DNA of 52,656 nucleotides from an uncultured Clostridia bacterium (lineage in GTDB: Bacteria; Bacillota; Clostridia; Oscillospirales; Ruminococcaceae), in assembly GCA_947625155.1 (NCBI GenBank), contig CANQNG010000011.1:1-52656 (forward strand), written 5' to 3'. This document shows, piece by piece, positions 1,874 through 51,191 of this stretch. The translations under genes were made by a program, and so were the position numbers. The stretch's first letter is position 1. Every line of letters begins with the position of its first letter. The notes below the pieces were generated by a model. The model did no database searches and was not told where the DNA came from. It worked only from the letters and a program-made list of their open reading frames with translations.

Positions 1874-1910
1874 CAAGATACAATAAGTCAGCATCCAATA
1901 CTATTATGTA

Positions 1911-1939
1911 TTGAATTCGTGACCGAAATCGAGTAAAAT
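1911..1939 (+). promoter_or_regulatory. Promoter of candidate non-coding RNA
   Basis: TTGAAT at 1911-1916, a 17-base spacer and TAAAAT at 1934-1939 form a good vegetative promoter. No start codon with a ribosome binding site follows. Downstream lie several perfect hairpins and then an intrinsic terminator at 2202-2233, so the promoter appears to serve an RNA gene. Confidence 0.55.
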
Positions 1940-1945
1940 AGGAAA

Positions 1946-2233
1946 AGCAGTAAATACGAAAGTGGCTCGTGCGTGGAAGCGTTCCACTGTCTCCCCTCTC
2001 AAATACAGTGGTCTGTTTCCGGCAGATCGGATCAGAAAAGCAGGATCTCGTGTTTACTGTAGAAAAGTTAAATTTTTTAACTCCAGCGCAACGGAAAAGA
2101 GATCTCTAGTGAAAAAATTTGACTTTTCCAAACGGCAGCTTGCAGTGCAGATGAACGGCAGTTCATATCAGGCTTGCCGGTCTTACCTTCCTCTTTATGA
2201 AAACATCCGGCTTAGGTCGGGTGTTTTTTGTTT
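1946..2233 (+). ncRNA. Candidate structured non-coding RNA, about 290 nt, unknown family
   Basis: The stretch has its own promoter and intrinsic terminator and no credible protein gene. Paired elements seen directly are: a 12-bp stem, CAGTAAATACGA (1948-1959) with TCGTGTTTACTG (2048-2059), one U-G pair; GTGGAA/TTCCAC closing a GCG loop (1973-1987); AGTTAAA/TTTAACT (2066-2082); GGAAAAG (2093-2099) with CTTTTCC (2123-2129); ATGAAC/GTTCAT with a GGCA loop (2151-2166), enclosed by CGGCA (2133-2137) and TGCCG (2175-2179); then the terminator. The alternative CCACTGT (1984-1990) with ACAGTGG (2005-2011) competes with the second hairpin. I do not recognise it as tmRNA, RNase P, SRP, a T-box or a cobalamin riboswitch; 6S RNA cannot be excluded. 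Confidence 0.55.
2202..2233 (+). terminator. Intrinsic terminator after candidate RNA gene
   Basis: AACATCCG (2202-2209) pairs with CGGGTGTT (2218-2225) around an 8-base loop, followed by TTTTTTGTTT. On the opposite strand the same hairpin is followed by TGTTTTC, so it may also serve weakly for the convergent minus-strand alkD operon, which ends at 2257. Confidence 0.7.
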
Positions 2234-2256
2234 GCATAAGCAAAAGCAGGCGCATC

Positions 2257-2946
2257 TCACGCCTGCTTCCGGTCTCGTTTCAGTGTCAGCAGATAGGCTT
2301 TCTGCTCCGGGGCGATACGGAAACTCTCACGGGCTTTCTGTATCGTCTTATTGTGTGTCCACGGAGAAAGGCGATTCTCCCGGAGAAACGGGAGCGCCGC
2401 ATCATACTGCATGATCAGCGCCTCGGCAAAGAACCACGCCTGCATCATGTTCACATAGTAGGCATCGCTCTGCACGGCGGCAGCTTCTTCCAAGTATGCC
2501 GCCCGGAAACGCTCGCCTAAAAAATGTGTCATCCGCATCCCCAGCCCGAACCGGATGACATATGTCTGCCCGGAGCGCAGCCATACCGGGATGCGCTCTT
2601 CGAGCAGCTCCGGGTGTTTCCGGAACAGCTTCGGGCGGAGCTGGTCGCAGGTCGCCCAGTTGTTCACATAGGGCAAAAATGCTTCCAGCGCCGGCATCAG
2701 TTCCTCTGCCGTTCTCATTTCGGAAAGCAGAAAGGCATGGAGCTGGTCTTCCTCAAAATACCGGTGCGGCAGTTCTTCCAGAAATGCCTGAAATGCGCCT
2801 GCCCTGTACAATTCTTTCGCAAGCGCCCGCAGTGTCGGTGTGCGGACACCGATAATGACCTCCCTCGGGATGCCGGGCAGTGTCCTCGCCTGTAATGTCC
2901 CAAAGGGCTCGTCCTGCAAGGCGAACAACTGTTCTTCTATCGTCAT
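2257..2946 (-). CDS. AlkD-like DNA alkylation repair protein
   Basis: The 229-residue product belongs to the AlkC/AlkD HEAT-like repeat DNA glycosylases, which excise N3- and N7-alkylated purines without flipping the base. The motif YVNNWATCDQL (about residues 93-103) carries the conserved Trp and Asp of the active-site cleft, and VNMMQAWFFAEAL supplies the second conserved aromatic region. Length is typical. It is the last gene of a minus-strand operon, 3 bp downstream of the exchanger gene. Its neighbours do not suggest a repair regulon, so it is probably constitutive. The family assignment is firm; substrate range is inferred from the family. Confidence 0.88.
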   Translation of the reverse strand: MTIEEQLFALQDEPFGTLQARTLPGIPREVIIGVRTPTLRALAKELYRAGAFQAFLEELPHRYFEEDQLHAFLLSEMRTAEELMPALEAFLPYVNNWATCDQLRPKLFRKHPELLEERIPVWLRSGQTYVIRFGLGMRMTHFLGERFRAAYLEEAAAVQSDAYYVNMMQAWFFAEALIMQYDAALPFLRENRLSPWTHNKTIQKARESFRIAPEQKAYLLTLKRDRKQA

Positions 2947-15447: not shown

Positions 15448-16755
15448 TTATTTAGAAAAGATCCAGACCGTTTCATGCTGCTCTTCTGACTGTTGGTCAG
15501 TCTCTAAGACCCGCAGATCCATGAAAGAACCGTCTGCCTTTTTATAGGACAGCACCAAAACATCCTCTTTTTTCAGCGCTTTGGAAAGATTTTCATAATC
15601 CGTAAATTCCTGAAAGATGCTGTGATATTCCTCCGAGACGTATTTTTCCATGTAACTGTGCAGTGCCCGGCTGTAGCAGAAATCTGTTTTTTCCAGAATT
15701 TCCATAAAATACTGAGGAATATAGATATACCGCAAGGTATCCCGCTTCATATCCACGAAATACACGGCAGCATACTTGGTAGCGATCAGCCGCAGGAAAT
15801 ACTCCGCATCGTGCTTTTCGAGCAGCATTCGCTCCAGCTCTGCGTTCATGATACGCCTGCGGCGCTGTCCGCCGCCCTGCTTGTAGAAATTTTCCTTGTC
15901 CTGACGCATCGCAAGCTCTGCCGCCCCAACGACCTGATAGACGGCAGTCGTATTTTCGGCACTCTCAATGCCGGCGGAGATCATGTAGCCATCCTCTGCC
16001 AGCACCTGCCGCAGCTTTGCTGTGAGCTGCTCCGTGCTGCTCTTGGAAAGCGTCTGACTGAGCATCACAAATTCATCACCGCCGATACGGTAATTCCTTT
16101 CCTCCGGGAAAAAGCGTTTCATGGCATCTGCCACACTACACAGCATGTCATCCCCCTTCTTGTGCCCGAGGTGGTTGTTCATCTCGTGCAGTCCATTCAG
16201 ATCGACATACAGACAGGTGAGTCTGCCCTTTTCGTTTTCCCGGAGCTTCTCCAGATCCTCATTGAACTGATGGCGGTTGTAGAGCAAAGTGAGTGCATCC
16301 CGGTAGCAGTTCTCGACCAGCTCCTGCCGTTCCTCATGGAGCATGCGCACATCCGTGTCAGTCTCACGCCAACTGAACACGGCATAGGGATGCTCGGGGG
16401 TGCAGTCTGCCGAAGAGATGATGGCAAATGTGACCCACATACCGCTGCCGTCATTGGTTTTCCGCTTGTAGGTCTGCACAATGCGCCGTTCACCGGAAAA
16501 AACCCGCTTCTGCACATACTTGGCATCCGAAAAACGCAGATACTCCTCCGAATACGAGGAAATAATAATGCCGTCCTCCACCTGCTGCCGGATAAAGGCA
16601 TAGATGTTGTCTGCGTTGGCGTAGCTGTCATCGTGCATCATGGGATCCAGCTTCAGAAATTCAAAATTTCCCGTCATCAGATCGACCCGAGCCAGCTTCA
16701 GGTAATCGCCAAGCAGCACGTTTGCAATAAATTCGCTGTGACTGTCTGTATACAT
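15448..16755 (-). CDS. Diguanylate cyclase with flanking PAS-like sensor regions
   Basis: A 435-residue GGDEF protein that would make cyclic di-GMP. Residues 1 to about 145 look PAS-like (FEFLKLDPMMHDDSYANADN, RRIVQTYKRKTNDGSGMWVT), the GGDEF domain spans about 150-300 (YRDALTLLYNRHQFNED, LYVDLNGLHEMNNHLGHKKG, YRIGGDEF with GGDEF at 225-229), and a second PAS-like region follows to the C-terminus. The active-site motif is intact. There are no membrane segments, so it is cytosolic. Its ATG overlaps the stop of the araC gene by one base (TAATG), so the two are co-translated and probably work in one pathway. Confidence 0.88.
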   Translation of the reverse strand: MYTDSHSEFIANVLLGDYLKLARVDLMTGNFEFLKLDPMMHDDSYANADNIYAFIRQQVEDGIIISSYSEEYLRFSDAKYVQKRVFSGERRIVQTYKRKTNDGSGMWVTFAIISSADCTPEHPYAVFSWRETDTDVRMLHEERQELVENCYRDALTLLYNRHQFNEDLEKLRENEKGRLTCLYVDLNGLHEMNNHLGHKKGDDMLCSVADAMKRFFPEERNYRIGGDEFVMLSQTLSKSSTEQLTAKLRQVLAEDGYMISAGIESAENTTAVYQVVGAAELAMRQDKENFYKQGGGQRRRRIMNAELERMLLEKHDAEYFLRLIATKYAAVYFVDMKRDTLRYIYIPQYFMEILEKTDFCYSRALHSYMEKYVSEEYHSIFQEFTDYENLSKALKKEDVLVLSYKKADGSFMDLRVLETDQQSEEQHETVWIFSK

Positions 16756-17525
16756 TATCCGATCGCCTCTTTGTGTGTCTCTTGATCCCGGAAGTCCGGT
16801 ATCTGGAACTGCTTTCTGTATGCCTTGGGTGTGACACCTTGGTATTTCTTGAATATTTTGATAAAGTAACTCTGCGAACTGAAACCGAGCAAATTACTGA
16901 TCTCCAGATCAGAATACTCGGAATACCGCAGGAGATTGGCAGCATATTCTGCTTTGCGGGCATTGACGAAGTCGCTGAAATTCGTTCCTGTCTCTGCCTT
17001 GAACAGACGAGAGAGGTAGGCAGAGCTAAGACCGAGCTGCGCTGCTGCGACTTCCAGTGACAGCTTATTGTGCAGGTGATCGCTGATAAAGTCGATGACC
17101 TTGACGATGGGCTTGGAATAGCAGCCGTTGTTGCGGACATGGCGCATATGGAGCGTATAGTCCTCCAGCATATCCTTGTGGATGGCATGTACCTGTTCCA
17201 CCGATCTCGCCTCATCGGCGAGGTTGATATAGTAATCGCTCAGCCCATAGGACTTTTCGGGTGTCATGCCGCCCTTGACGCAGAAACGTGCGATCATGGC
17301 AGCGGAGATCACAAAATGATACCGGATGTTGTGGAGCGGATCCTTGCTGAGAATGCCATACCCTTCACCGCAAAGGGGCGTTGAAAGCATCCGGACGCTC
17401 TCAATATCTCCGGCACAGATGCTTTCATAGAAAGCGATCTCCCGGTCAAAGGAGATGTGTTCAAAATTCATCTCCCGCTGTGAGAACAGATATTCTGCCA
17501 TATGCTTTTCATGTTCTTCTTTCAT
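16755..17525 (-). CDS. AraC-family transcriptional regulator
   Basis: A 256-residue regulator whose last 100 residues hold the two helix-turn-helix motifs of the AraC family (LSLEVAAAQLGLSSAYLSRL and DLEISNLLGFSSQSYFIKIF, followed by GVTPKAYRKQF). The N-terminal 150 residues (SICAGDIESVRMLSTPLCGEG, ARFCVKGGMTPEKSYGLSDY) are a helical domain seen in clostridial AraC proteins, not a sugar-binding cupin. The frame opens at 17552, but ATG 17525 follows GGGGGAA at 7 bases. It is coupled to the downstream GGDEF gene and lies immediately 3' of the GH9-dockerin-GH16 gene, which makes that enzyme a candidate target; this is inference from position. Confidence 0.9.
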   Translation of the reverse strand: MKEEHEKHMAEYLFSQREMNFEHISFDREIAFYESICAGDIESVRMLSTPLCGEGYGILSKDPLHNIRYHFVISAAMIARFCVKGGMTPEKSYGLSDYYINLADEARSVEQVHAIHKDMLEDYTLHMRHVRNNGCYSKPIVKVIDFISDHLHNKLSLEVAAAQLGLSSAYLSRLFKAETGTNFSDFVNARKAEYAANLLRYSEYSDLEISNLLGFSSQSYFIKIFKKYQGVTPKAYRKQFQIPDFRDQETHKEAIG

Positions 17526-17559
17526 GGATAGTTTCCCCCGGTCAAAATTCATTTATTTT

Positions 17560-17588
17560 ATTATATCACATCTGATCCGATCCTGCAA
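17560..17588 (-). promoter_or_regulatory. Promoter of araC-GGDEF operon
   Basis: TTGCAG (17588-17583), a 17-base spacer and TATAAT (17565-17560) on the minus strand, about 35 bases before the araC start. Confidence 0.8.
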
Positions 17589-17616
17589 GAGTTTTTTTGT
17601 AAATTATTTTTGTTGG

Positions 17617-17659
17617 TGAAAAAACAGACAAGCAGAGGACAAATGTCTCTGCTTGTCTG
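17617..17659 (-). terminator. Intrinsic terminator after GH9-dockerin-GH16 gene
   Basis: CAGACAAGCAGAG and CTCTGCTTGTCTG (17625-17637 with 17647-17659) form a 13-bp stem. On the minus strand it is followed by TTTTTTC, so it ends the enzyme transcript and separates it from the araC promoter. Confidence 0.9.
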
Positions 17660-17701
17660 CATTATGATAGAAAGAAGGGAAAAGCAAATGTACCGGATGC
17701 C

Positions 17702-20700
17702 TTACTGTGCATCATAAGTTACCCACTGATAATGAGCTGTCAGAGGTGTATTGCCGTTGAACGGCTTGAGCCATTCATCCACACCAGTACCGGGCCATGT
17801 GTTCATCATGATCTTGCCGGGGGTAGAAGGAATGTTGTCGTTCGCTGTATGGACTGCCTTGCCGTCTACATACCATGTGATATGGTCAGGTGCCCACTCA
17901 AAGCCGTAGGTATGGTATCCTTCAGCAGCATCAAAGCCGAGGTCATACATGTATTCATGGTCGCCCACACCGTTGATGTAGTAATTGAACTGTACCTTTG
18001 TGGTATCCTTGCCGAGGACCTCGATGTCGATCTCATCCCACGGGTTATCGTCGGTCGGACCTGTGTAGGTAAAGAACGAGGAAACAACACCGTCATTCTT
18101 GATCGCCTGCATGGATGTCTCATAATAACCGTAGCTGTAAAAATCATTTGTTCTGTACTCTGCACCGGAATAGTGGTACTGCCCGGTCGGGTCTTTGTCG
18201 ATGGAAAGACTCAGACAGCCGTTGTTGAGGGAAGTATTCTGTGCATACCAGCCGCAGTCAAAAGGATCGCCGTTCGTCCAGCCGTCAGAGGCAATAAACA
18301 TACTCGTCGAACCGGTGCGGAAGTCTGCGATACTGTCAGCGCTGGCATTCATCGGCGTACCATAGTCCTTGATGCCGCTGGGTGTGTCCTGCGGACCGCT
18401 GACGGGTGCATCGGTAGGCTGTTCGGTGGGTGCATCTGTGGGAGCTTCCATAGGTGGTTCTGTGGGATACGTCTCCGGCACATCCACGACAGGCAGCTCA
18501 TCGATCACATCAATGACATAGCACAGAATGTTCAGGGCATCTGTAGGTGTCAGCTTACCGTCCAGATCCACATCGGCATTGATCTCACCTTGGGGCGTGA
18601 TATCATCTGCGATGTTGAGCAAGCTCCGGTTCAGGACAACGACATCTTGCAGTCTGACAACGCCGTCTGCATTCACATCACCGTACAGGGGCTTACCAGA
18701 AGGCTGCTCCGTTTCTGTCGGCTGCTGTGCTTCTGTTGTGGGGTCGTCATTCGGGGTGGTCTCGGTCGGTTCGATGGTCTCCGCTGCATCCGCATTCGTG
18801 AGGGTGAGCAGGTAAGTCAGCGGAGAGTTCCAGTAAATGGTGATCTCATTGGTGGAGTAGCTCTCGGAATTGTCCACATAGCACAGCGCCGGAGCAAGCC
18901 CGTTGCAGTAAGCTTTAGCAGCGCTGTCCTCCAGTGCGGAGTTGACACCGCCGACGAGCATGCCCTTCATGGCAGTATTCTGTGCCATGGACGGACGGTG
19001 GTGCGGTGTCTGCGGCGAGACCGTACCATAGCCAGTCACAAAGCAAGTGCCTACCGGATTCGAGCCGAGCAGATAGTCGATCTGCTTCTGCGCGCCGGTC
19101 ATGTATTTTTCCTCACCCGTGAGCTGATAAGCAAGCCCCATGATGATACCGGTGTTGGCAATGGTCATATTGCTGCCCCATGCGTACTTGATAGCAGCTA
19201 CCCCGTAGGGAGACTCATTCGCCCAGCCGACAAATTTGTCAGCCTGTGTGATCACAGCAGACTTTGCATTGGTGTAAGCGGAGGAAGATGTATCCGCGCC
19301 GGGCATCGTCAGGATAGCGATATTGCCGTAATCGCCGACCGTTGCCCAGTCCAGACCTTCCTGTAAACGCATGCCCTCCAGAGCCGTCTTGTACTTGTCA
19401 GAACCGGTCGCACGCCAGAGCTGTGCGGCAGCCCAGTAGCGCTCATCCACGTCCGTCTTGTCACCGTATTCACCGGTCACGATGTCCTCTGGATTGGTGT
19501 AGCCGATATAACCGTTCTGTTCGAGGAAGCCCCATGCCTTTTCGGCAGCATCGAGGCACTTCTGTGCATAGGCAGCATCCACATCCTTGTAAACTTCGGC
19601 AGCAAGTGCCATAGAAGCTGCAAAGTCTGCCGTTGCCGTCGTGGAGATCGGCATCACGATCAGCGGTTCTGTCTCCATCTGCGGCATGACGTAGCCCGGG
19701 AAACTCTCGCAGGTCACCTTGTGGTAAACACCGCCGGAGGAAGCCTGCATTTTCAGCATCCAGTCCAGCTCATACTTCACTTCGTCAAGGATATCAGCCG
19801 TACCGTTGCCGCTTTCGGGAATACCCAGCTTGTCAGAATACATCGTGGGGTCTGTGAGGTAAGCATACATCAGGTCAGCCACAGCCTTTGCGCCCGCAAC
19901 AACATAACGTCCGTAGTCGCCGGCATCGTGCCAGCCGCCGCTGACTTCGATCTGTTCATTGGTATGGTAAATGGTCGCCATTGTTGCATGACAAGCCGGG
20001 TGTCCGAAAGTACTATCCTTGACCTCTGTACCGCAGCGCTGGAGATAGAGCATTTTCACGGAATCATCCAGCAAATTGCCATACGGCGCATCTCCGATCT
20101 CAAAAGTGTACGAATCATCCATGCCGTCAGCCGTGATGTAATACTTGCCGGGCGTGGTGACCTCCGAGAAATCACCGATGCGGTCCGTCTCACCGGCAGA
20201 GGAATTTGCTTTCTCATCGGAAAGTGTCCCTGTGTAGACCGCCTGCTTGGTGTCGGCATTGACAACAGAGAACGAACCCGCATTGGCATTGCGGAATACA
20301 GCCGTTTTCTGACTGTCTGTCCTGTAGCCGACCTGATTTGTTAGAATGTTAGGCTGATAGGGTCTTGTGGCACTGTAGTCCACCTTGCTGTCATCGACCA
20401 GTTCGAGCTTTGCATTGTCAACATAGATCGTATGCTCCGGCAGGTCGGCAGGATCAGCCTCTTCCAGACCGCAGTTAAAGCAGAGCTTCGCCATGATGTC
20501 AGTCTCTTCCTCCATGGTGAACTCCTGTACGATCGTCTGCGGCGTTGTGGTGACATCGATCCCTTGCCAAGTATACGCCTGATAGGTACCGCCGTTCTCT
20601 TGGATCATGCACTCCACATATCTGTTTGTGGAAGCAGAAATATCGTATGTCAGGCGATACACACCATTCTGGTACAGCGGGATAATGTCATAATACAACT

Positions 20701-20947
20701 GCACGGAATAGGTCTTTGTACCTCTGTTTGCGACAGTGAGTGCCAGTTTTCCGTCCTGTACGCCAAGTGTGCCGCTGCCGCCGCTTTCCTTGTACATGCC
20801 CCATGTCTCAAGACCGCTGTCAAAGGATGAACTGAACACCGTCCCCGGTGCGGCGGACACGGAGAACTGTGCCGCCGGAACAGAAGTTGCCAACAGTGCG
20901 AAAGCGGCAATACCTGCTGCCAGCTTTCTGAAAGAATTCTTTTTCAT
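17702..20947 (-). CDS. Cellulosomal GH9-dockerin-GH16 beta-glucanase
   Basis: A 1081-residue secreted enzyme. In order: signal peptide (1 to about 32, ending VSAA); a CBM4/9-like module (about 35-185); a CelD-type Ig-like domain (about 195-290); a GH9 catalytic domain (about 295-735) with [10 protein letters not shown] at 337-346 (Asp 341 and 344) and catalytic Glu 701 in STNEITIYW; a Thr/Glu/Pro linker; a type I dockerin (about 753-818) with two calcium loops, DVNADGVV and DVDLDGKL; a second Pro/Thr linker; and a GH16 domain (about 860-1081) with DEIDIE at 971-976. GH9 cleaves cellulose, GH16 mixed-linkage glucan or lichenan. The dockerin would plug it into a cohesin scaffold. The ribosome binding site is GAGGGGAAAAGT. 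Confidence 0.95.
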
Positions 20948-21023
20948 ACTTTTCCCCTCTCGATCATAAAATTTGAAACGAACTTGCAGTATCGGTCAGC
21001 GCATACCGGATACTGTTAGGTCT

Positions 21024-21052
21024 ATTATATCATATCCCGGCAGAGGATCCTA
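21024..21052 (-). promoter_or_regulatory. Putative promoter of GH9-dockerin-GH16 gene
   Basis: A perfect TATAAT lies at 21029-21024 on the minus strand, but the base run 17 bp upstream (TAGGAT, 21052-21047) hardly resembles TTGACA. A good -10 with a poor -35 suggests activator dependence. The leader to the start codon is about 70 nt. Confidence 0.5.
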
Positions 21053-21101
21053 CGATCTTTTTGATAATAATAGCAATATTTTGACACAAATTGCAGACAG
21101 A

Positions 21102-22052
21102 TCAAAGATTTTTCAGCAGTTCGTCCCGCACACCGTCCAGCCGTTTGTCGGAAATGCCGAAATCCATTTCCTTGTAGCTCCATGCGCATCTGCCGATGCC
21201 GCAGGTCTCAAAGGCAGTGTGGATCGCTCTGTACCAAGCCAGTGTGTCCTCCGGGCTGACCCGGTCGATCACACCGTATTCCCCACAGTAGAGCACTGCA
21301 CCGTGACGGGCAGCCTTTTCCATTGCCGAAGCAAACAGCTTCTCAAAATATGCCGGTGTCACGCCGCTTTCCGCAAAGGACATGCGTTCCGCCGGGTCGA
21401 TCGCCGCTGTCCAGTAAGCGCCCTGATGCGTAAATTTCAGCGGTTCGTAGCAGTGGATATTGTAGGCCACTTTGTCATCATACGGCGCATCCAGGTCTTT
21501 CAGGGCAGCAGGGCTGTTGTTCCAGTAGCTGCCGACAAGCACAAGCGTTTCCGGTGCGTATTTCCGCAGCCGTTCCATGCAGACAGGAACGAGCTTGTTC
21601 CATACATCGAGATAGGCAGCATCGGTGATCTCATTGAGCAGCTCAAAGGCGACCGCTTTGTGCATGTGTCCGTACCGATCCGCCAGTACTTCCCAGAGCT
21701 GACAGAAACGCTCCTGCAAGGCTGCACTCTCAAAGAAGCCCTCCTCCCGTTCGCCGCTGTCAAAGGAAAATCCGGCAGTCTTGTGCAGATCAAGCACAAC
21801 ATGCAGTCCGTGTTTCTGACAAAGTGCGAGCGCCCTGTCAATGCGGGCAAGTCCGTCCTCTTTCATCGTGCCGTCTGCCTCCTGAACGACATTGTAGTCG
21901 AATGGCAGACGGACATGATCTGCCCCCCAGGAAGCGATCTTCGCAATGTCCTCCTCCGTGATGAACGTGTCCAGACGTTCCTCACTGTAGTCGCATTGGG
22001 AGAACCATCCTCCCAGATCGATACCCTTGTAAAATCCACGCTGTTTCAGCAT
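21102..22052 (-). CDS. GH5-family glycoside hydrolase without signal peptide
   Basis: A 316-residue (beta/alpha)8 enzyme of the cellulase GH5 clan. It begins MLKQRGFYKGIDLGGWFSQ; HVRLPFDYNVV and LHVVLDLHKTAGFSF are typical strand motifs, FELLNEITDA holds the acid/base Glu 141, and LYCGEYGV holds the nucleophile Glu 258. No signal peptide is present from the ATG at 22052, which follows GGAGGGATCGCT, so it likely acts on imported oligosaccharides in the cytosol. An open frame runs on to 22349, but that part crosses a hairpin-rich repeat and lacks a start signal. The gene lies upstream of the large GH9 gene on the same strand, with 154 bp between. Confidence 0.9.
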   Translation of the reverse strand: MLKQRGFYKGIDLGGWFSQCDYSEERLDTFITEEDIAKIASWGADHVRLPFDYNVVQEADGTMKEDGLARIDRALALCQKHGLHVVLDLHKTAGFSFDSGEREEGFFESAALQERFCQLWEVLADRYGHMHKAVAFELLNEITDAAYLDVWNKLVPVCMERLRKYAPETLVLVGSYWNNSPAALKDLDAPYDDKVAYNIHCYEPLKFTHQGAYWTAAIDPAERMSFAESGVTPAYFEKLFASAMEKAARHGAVLYCGEYGVIDRVSPEDTLAWYRAIHTAFETCGIGRCAWSYKEMDFGISDKRLDGVRDELLKNL

Positions 22053-22203
22053 AGCGATCCCTCCTCTGCCGCTCTGCGGCGTTCTTTGAGAACAGTATAT
22101 CATTTTTTGCGGACATCGTATACCATTATTTTGCAGATCATAGCAGACTTTTGCGTAAAAAAACAGTTTCGGGAACATTTTGCGGTGCGTATGTTGTTTT
22201 GGG

Positions 22204-22509
22204 ACTGCATCCGGGCAGGGGAGTGGATAAATTGCGGTCATTATGTGCATCCACGCTGCTCCGCCCAAGGGCGGAGCGGATAGTGCAAATAAGAGGGAAG
22301 AAGGGGGCACTTTTTTTGCCAAAAGTGCCCCCTCGTCCAAAAACAGCATCCATGCTGTTTTTGGACTTCACCCCCTGAGAATGGCGAAGTATAGAAGTGT
22401 TTCGCCGGCAGCGTGACGCTGCACCCGTCCTGCCTCCCAATGCCGCCTTACGGCGGCAAAGGTCGGAACACTTTCAAAAACTCCCTGTTTATCCACTGCA
22501 TCCGGGCAG
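22204..22509. repeat. Hairpin-array element between 15-bp direct repeats
   Basis: ACTGCATCCGGGCAG stands at both 22204-22218 and 22495-22509. Just inside, AGTGGATAAA (22222-22231) is inverted as TTTATCCACT (22488-22497). Between them lie six perfect hairpins: GCTCCGCCC/GGGCGGAGC (22258-22277); GGGGGCAC plus T-run with AAAAGTGCCCCC (22303-22332); a 14-15 bp stem GTCCAAAAACAGCA/TGCTGTTTTTGGAC (22335-22366); GGCGAA/TTCGCC (22384-22406); GCAGCG/CGCTGC (22408-22422); TGCCGCC/GGCGGCA (22441-22458). The flanking repeat pattern looks like a small non-autonomous mobile element or an interspersed intergenic repeat. The second and third hairpins could also act as terminators. There is no credible protein gene. 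Confidence 0.6.
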
Positions 22510-51115: not shown

Positions 51116-51191
51116 AGGGGTATAGCTCAGTTGGTAGAGCAGCGGTCTCCAAAACCGCGTGTCGAGGGTTCAAATCCTTCTGCCCCTGCCA
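51116..51191 (+). tRNA. trnW: tRNA-Trp (anticodon CCA)
   Basis: The 76-nt sequence folds into a complete cloverleaf. The acceptor arm pairs AGGGGTA with TGCCCCT, the D stem GCTC with GAGC, the anticodon stem GCGGT with ACCGC around CTCCAAA (anticodon CCA), and the T stem GAGGG with CCTTC around TTCAAAT (one G-T pair). The discriminator is G and the CCA end is encoded. It reads UGG, the codon also sensed by the T-box upstream of trpE. An integrase gene follows 3'. Confidence 0.97.
51169..51191 (+). other. Putative integration site (3' end of tRNA-Trp)
   Basis: Tyrosine integrases next to a tRNA usually recombine within the T arm and acceptor 3' half. The 3' end of this tRNA is therefore the likely att core. 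The partner repeat would lie to the right of the window and cannot be seen. Confidence 0.35.

Follow-up and report, generated by a model that had tools for sequence, protein, structure and literature searches.

A genus-specific structured RNA of Clostridia with an invariant loop complementary to cellulase ribosome-binding sites, a candidate post-transcriptional regulator

C-rich base-pairing small RNAs (sRNAs) are known as a kind. In PMC9217828, RNAIII of S. aureus is described as pairing UCCC seeds with G-rich Shine-Dalgarno sequences, by which translation is blocked, and for RsaE the blocking of ribosome-binding sites by a UCCC seed is proposed; the B. subtilis sRNA RoxS, according to PMC5419742, activates by blocking mRNA decay. 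The RNA described here resembles these three, as PMC9217828 presents them, in having UCCC or UCCCC seeds that pair, or in our RNA are predicted to pair, with a G-rich Shine-Dalgarno sequence. It differs from them in its length of about 285 nt, its conserved bulged hairpins, an invariant loop of 9 nt, its predicted cellulase targets and its occurrence in one genus only, and its family is without a match in Rfam 15. As a large structured RNA gene in Clostridia it is comparable to the raiA/ModT RNA (RF03072), for which eight paired regions and two pseudoknots are given in PMC11706538, whereas our RNA is a row of four hairpin units in a consensus drawn without a pseudoknot search. RF03072 had 0 matches in 38 genomes of the genus, the control genomes being silent too, and did not match the RNA locus (standard and permissive scans) or seven homologue loci. 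The 6S RNA is likewise a structured RNA gene without a reading frame, but it occupies a separate locus in the same genome: the one match to RF00013 lies at G000:C6:110987-111198, not at the RNA locus, and 6S RNA was rejected as the identity of our RNA. Bacteroides, the host of the sRNA GibS, belongs to a different phylum from our bacterium. GibS and other Bacteroides polysaccharide sRNAs are like our RNA in a role, putative in our case, in the control of glycan use in gut bacteria. Searches of open-licence PMC papers brought up no sRNA regulator of cellulases.

The window analysed here is a stretch of 52,656 nucleotides from an uncultured Clostridia bacterium, whose own genome is G000 in the set of 38 genus genomes. 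The RNA gene looks real: a preliminary description had placed it at 1946-2233, which is correct within a few bases, and the observation is confirmed by fold stability, conservation in the genus and covariation. Its parts are the following.

1878..1939, + strand: promoter region with an A/T-rich upstream element, the -35, a spacer with AAAT and the -10 (scan and conservation)
1911-1916, + strand: -35 element TTGAAT
1934-1939, + strand: -10 element TAAAAT, 17 nt after the -35
1945..2229, + strand: structured RNA gene of about 285 nt (predicted transcript ends)
1947..2060, + strand: 5' domain, long-range stem P1 enclosing hairpin P2 (fold and covariation)
1993..2001, + strand: invariant C-rich apical loop of P2, CCCCUCUCA, proposed as the seed (alignment and unpaired probability)
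2062..2128, + strand: long hairpin H2 with a conserved bulge on its 5' side (alignment and covariation)
2133..2180, + strand: hairpin H3 (alignment)
2183..2202, + strand: near-invariant, pyrimidine-rich linker UUACCUUCCUCUUUAUGAAA, overlapping the 5' end of the terminator stem
2199..2229, + strand: intrinsic terminator, its stem paired in homologues

The RNA strand folds with -94.7 kcal/mol (z = -4.17), and 0 of 200 shuffles were as stable; the reverse strand gave z = -1.37. The four units of the consensus are the 5' domain (P1 and P2), H2, H3, and the linker with the terminator. Across the alignment of the 3' part, pairing holds in 93.2% of cells, and 21 of 49 pairs (97 cells) have changed on both sides, compared with 12.0 pairs and 31.4 cells in shuffles; slid registers yielded at most 20 such cells. 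The 12-bp long-range stem noted earlier is found in the predicted fold as P1, with 12-13 bp; its outer ACAG/CUGU is conserved, and its inner pairs 14-136, 15-135 and 16-134 (A1 numbering) show changes of both partners in 10, 7 and 7 of 28 members. At least five perfect hairpins, this stem among them, had been described, and P1, its inner hairpin, a 17-bp hairpin, a third one and the terminator are indeed predicted, but some of them are bulged. The stem of H2 has both sides changed in 11 of its 20 pairs, and its bulge reads UUUAGCGCAG in many members and CCAGCGCA in the window. H3 contains the near-invariant stretch CAGCUUGCAGUGCAGAUG at 2136-2153, and the linker reaches a mean unpaired probability of 0.81 versus 0.36 overall. 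The exact linker occurs in four of the five genus members within 297 family genomes, in none of these genomes outside the genus and in none of the viral contigs searched. At this locus, conservation concerns promoter, loop, H3, linker and terminator. In L214, a divergent member from genome G006, the loop, H3, the terminator and most of the linker are retained; the H2 hairpin is shortened and lacks the conserved bulge.

That the RNA forms a new or unassigned family, which the well-known large RNAs do not fit, is supported by clear covariation among the genus homologues and by the Rfam 15 search. At the gathering threshold no family matched the RNA locus, the window's sole match being a tRNA at 51116, and none matched the seven homologue loci; all matches of a permissive scan were far under their gathering scores. 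On these grounds a known Rfam family was rejected. The term orphan, used for the gene in the preliminary description, is apt as regards Rfam but less so as regards function, as the sequence suggests one, namely pairing with the ribosome-binding sites of cellulases. A plasmid match was sought for the RNA and none was obtained. The statement that no open frame with a ribosome site exists needs some qualification: reading frames do cross the region, e.g., GTG 1962..2414, but none is common to all 28 RNA members, and for this reason a protein-coding gene was rejected. The longest contained ORF varies among the 28: in six of them a frame opens at the second base of the RNA alignment (ATG; GTG in one), and for the other 22 no such start was listed.

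The promoter TTGAAT-17-TAAAAT, as proposed previously, was listed by the promoter scan, whose three promoter-like sites versus 0.9 +/- 0.9 in shuffles are weak evidence alone; across 28 genus members, however, the ATTG of the -35, the AAAT between the two boxes and the G just ahead of the -10 vary neither in sequence nor in spacing. The invariance of TAAAAT itself in this alignment is by construction, because it served as the anchor. Upstream of the -35, the A/T-rich element at 1878-1911 is conserved at fixed spacing in the genus and represents a possible UP element or regulator site. The conservation of the promoter, together with the fixed position of this element, suggests that transcription is regulated or strong. 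Used as a mark of a regulon, the promoter pattern gave 0-8 sites per genome, most with one mismatch. The terminator, announced as canonical, shows a stem with 99.7% of cells paired in 26 homologues, but is absent from the list of a simple terminator scan; pairing between its A and U tracts is the probable cause. A promoter and a terminator of its own, as read from sequence and conservation, point to an independent RNA gene.

Blastn detected the RNA locus in 29 of the 38 genus genomes, and a covariance model, built from 26 sequences of the 3' part only and matching 2058-2228 in the window, detected it in 30 of 38 (E<1e-15). All 12 high-quality genus genomes have the RNA, and the eight genomes without a match are 57-88% complete; one genus match comes from record CANRFM010000002.1, an uncultured Clostridia bin. 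Outside the genus no convincing homologue was revealed by blastn against 197 family genomes or by the covariance model against 297 family and 394 order genomes, draws that include a few genus members. Non-genus matches were short or weak and mostly terminator-like: nineteen of the loci matched by the model, scanned for five conserved motifs, displayed isolated single motifs in five, and none of six stretches inspected by eye was convincing. Distant relatives may be missed, because the model covers only the 3' part and the filters were strict. Among the family and order genomes sampled, the RNA therefore appears to be genus-specific.

The neighbouring genes, previously called independent on both sides, are separate genes, but some recur across the genus. 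VTC and/or DUF4956 genes adjoin the RNA in 11 of 30 loci (1.5-kb flanks, some of them cut), and genes classified by eye as ribbon-helix-helix-like and ClpB-like are seen in 16 and 13 of 29 loci, respectively, the former downstream where inspected. Just 3' of the DUF4956 gene in the window, an inverted repeat at 1756-1814 with a sub-threshold microRNA match is perhaps the terminator of that gene.

The loop of P2, CCCCUCUCA, is identical in all 28 aligned members, one more locus being cut by a contig end, and its unpaired probability is 0.99 on average and 0.81 at minimum. In 29 members, including the divergent L214, it is carried by a stem of variable sequence with a mean of 8.3 uninterrupted pairs, as opposed to 3.7 with shuffled flanks; at least five pairs are formed in 26 of the 29 members and in 25% of the shuffles. 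A fixed loop on a changing stem is what a base-pairing sRNA looks like, and the loop has the properties expected of an accessible, conserved C-rich seed.

The octamer complementary to this loop is GAGAGGGG. GH9 genes were collected by their Pfam model, ignoring start sites, which resulted in 293 matches in 37 of 38 genomes, and the best-scoring 131 of these, the window gene included, entered the start test; they comprise 30 matches listed with their loci, the first 100 of 120 listed without, and the window gene. As two start-codon pickers had mis-called some starts, an octamer was counted if it stood 4-14 nt upstream of any in-frame ATG up to the sixth. Within the best 131 of 293 matches, it precedes the start in 21 of 28 genes of the group GH9-A and in 10 of 14 of GH9-B (CBM4-GH9), both groups of secreted cellulases, as well as in two of 15 of GH9-C and 0 of 74 other GH9 genes, the groups being defined by our own signatures after the start sites had been seen. 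All 27 remaining permutations of the octamer were absent from the 131 GH9 starts, and the octamer itself was found before 0 of 333 background ORFs (400 kb from five genus genomes, with all ATGs in an ORF's first half taken into account), of which 47 are preceded by AGGAGG. A Fisher test gave 3e-20 on genes related by descent, a value overstating independence because orthologues share ancestry; that about six gene families have the same element is the better argument.

In the cellulase genes the sites lie 6-13 nt before the ATG, over the Shine-Dalgarno position, and GAGAGGGG, which contains GAGG, may serve partly as an ordinary Shine-Dalgarno sequence. The GH9-A site is present in 20 of 23 RNA-positive versus one of five RNA-negative genomes (p = 0.008), a difference that may reflect one clade. 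There are exceptions: G006 has the RNA with the same loop, but its GH9-A site reads GAAAGGAG, and in other genomes with the RNA the octamer is missing at the counted position, before GH9-A in G005 and G037 and before GH9-B in G023, G034 and G035. Apart from these exceptions, complementarity to the Shine-Dalgarno regions of a coherent set of putative targets exceeded the control. For the linker, the complement (k=9) was found at six of 131 GH9 starts, with nine of 300 shuffles as high; since it is not clearly enriched there, the linker need not be a seed, and together with the H2 bulge and H3 it may bind protein.

A search for the full loop complement, TGAGAGGGG, at 2-14 nt before ATG in the 38 genus genomes returned 108 matches versus as many as 64 for the reversed pattern, which weakens the case for specific targets. 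None was in the window's genome, because the octamers there are preceded by C or A and not by T. After subtraction of four overlapping duplicates and the RNA's own antisense, 103 loci remained, giving 105 site rows as two sites were read twice; an ORF of 60 aa or more follows in 69 of the 105 and is missing in the other 36. By a home-made signal-peptide rule 43 of the 69 ORFs look secreted, a rule to be regarded as permissive because 108 of the 333 background ORFs passed a variant of it in which each of the first four ATGs could serve as the start. Forty of the 69, many picked for their cellulase-like look, were scanned with Pfam, and 28 of them revealed a plant-cell-wall domain: 21 GH9 and/or CBM4, two GH48, two GH5, one GH16 with dockerin and two CE2, one of the latter with a dockerin match. 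The 12 without such a domain include three ABC-transport auxiliary proteins and five without any match. In four genomes, proteins that resemble one another have a TGAGAGGGG start site (L263, L264, L265 and L325, with ABC_transp_aux in three of the four) and represent a possible non-cellulase target. In the incomplete genomes G015 and G031, full 9-nt sites are present and the RNA was not found.

In the window's genome, the octamer stands at both a GH9-A gene (G000:C5) and a GH9-B gene, the latter in the window itself.

17702..20947, - strand: predicted target, a CBM4-CelD_N-GH9-dockerin-GH16 enzyme of 1081 aa (Pfam domains)
20954..20961, - strand: GAGAGGGG, the predicted target site, located 6 nt ahead of the start codon of this GH9 gene

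For the P2 region, duplexes with these starts are predicted at -23.5 kcal/mol (GH9-A) and -20.9 kcal/mol (GH9-B of the window). The window gene belongs to a cellulase cluster at 16755-22349 on the - strand, composed of an AraC-type regulator, the CBM4-GH9-dockerin-GH16 enzyme and a GH5 cellulase.

By computation, the gene is conserved and structured, its invariant loop is accessible, and the complement of the loop is concentrated at cellulase starts. That the RNA is expressed, that it pairs with mRNAs in living cells and represses their translation instead of activating it, and that it answers to a trigger are inferences beyond this. We regard it as probable that the RNA is a genus-specific, independently transcribed sRNA acting in trans, whose loop pairs with the ribosome-binding sites of cellulases and probably blocks translation. 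Transcribed from its own promoter, the RNA of about 285 nt would act by base-pairing, its 5' hairpin presenting the single-stranded invariant loop, which would pair, over a core of 8-9 bp, with ribosome-binding sites of the GAGAGGGG type in genes for secreted plant-cell-wall enzymes. The main targets would be the GH9-A and GH9-B groups, joined in some species by GH48, GH5, GH16-dockerin and CE2 genes, and pairing over the Shine-Dalgarno region would most likely block 30S binding, leading to less cellulase synthesis. A more far-reaching version, in which the RNA is a master post-transcriptional regulator, with the loop and the GH9, GH48, GH5, GH16 and CE2 sites kept complementary and the composition of cellulases or cellulosomes set at translation, seems to us evenly balanced between right and wrong.

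The direction of the effect may be read otherwise, as sequence alone cannot give it and B. subtilis RoxS, which blocks mRNA decay (PMC5419742), provides a precedent for activation; that our RNA activates its targets or protects their mRNAs is nevertheless doubtful, given sites that cover the Shine-Dalgarno position, the usual geometry for blocking initiation. A structured RNA with a protein as its main partner, bound at the H2 and H3 bulges and the linker, would make the pairing with cellulase mRNAs secondary or incidental. H3 and the linker show roughly the same degree of conservation as the loop and are largely retained in L214, and the lack of a clear enrichment of the linker complement at GH9 starts agrees with such a role, but the presence of the loop complement at two cellulase groups, when it stands at none of 74 further GH9 genes and none of 333 background ORFs, would be left unexplained, and we consider this reading unlikely.

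The octamer could also serve some other factor as a cis element, or be a ribosome-binding site of a special kind, and match the loop by coincidence, as would suit the full sites in G015 and G031, where the RNA was not detected, the inheritance of sites by orthologues, and G006 with its loop and without the GH9-A site. Against this, the match falls on the one invariant and always exposed loop of the RNA, several families (GH9-A, GH9-B, GH48, GH5, GH16 and CE2) share the site, and the GH9-A site follows the RNA across genomes (p = 0.008, one clade being possible), so that coincidence is in our view distinctly improbable. A cis-acting leader or attenuator of the downstream gene, to which the ribbon-helix-helix-like family flanking 16 of 29 loci, often followed by the ClpB-like gene (13), might point, was rejected because the downstream gene is not constant, other loci lacking that family, and is convergent in the window; with a terminator stem that pairs in 26 of 26 aligned members, this explanation is barely credible.

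Discussions of how gut Clostridia control their cellulases and cellulosomes usually centre on transcription. To this, a conserved sRNA with a readable seed and coherent cellulase targets would add a layer of translational control, for which the 9-nt loop would give a simple experimental handle. It would also mean that the function of an orphan structured RNA could be read from genomes alone. If the more far-reaching version above is true, one RNA governs the breakdown of plant fibre post-transcriptionally across a genus of gut bacteria.
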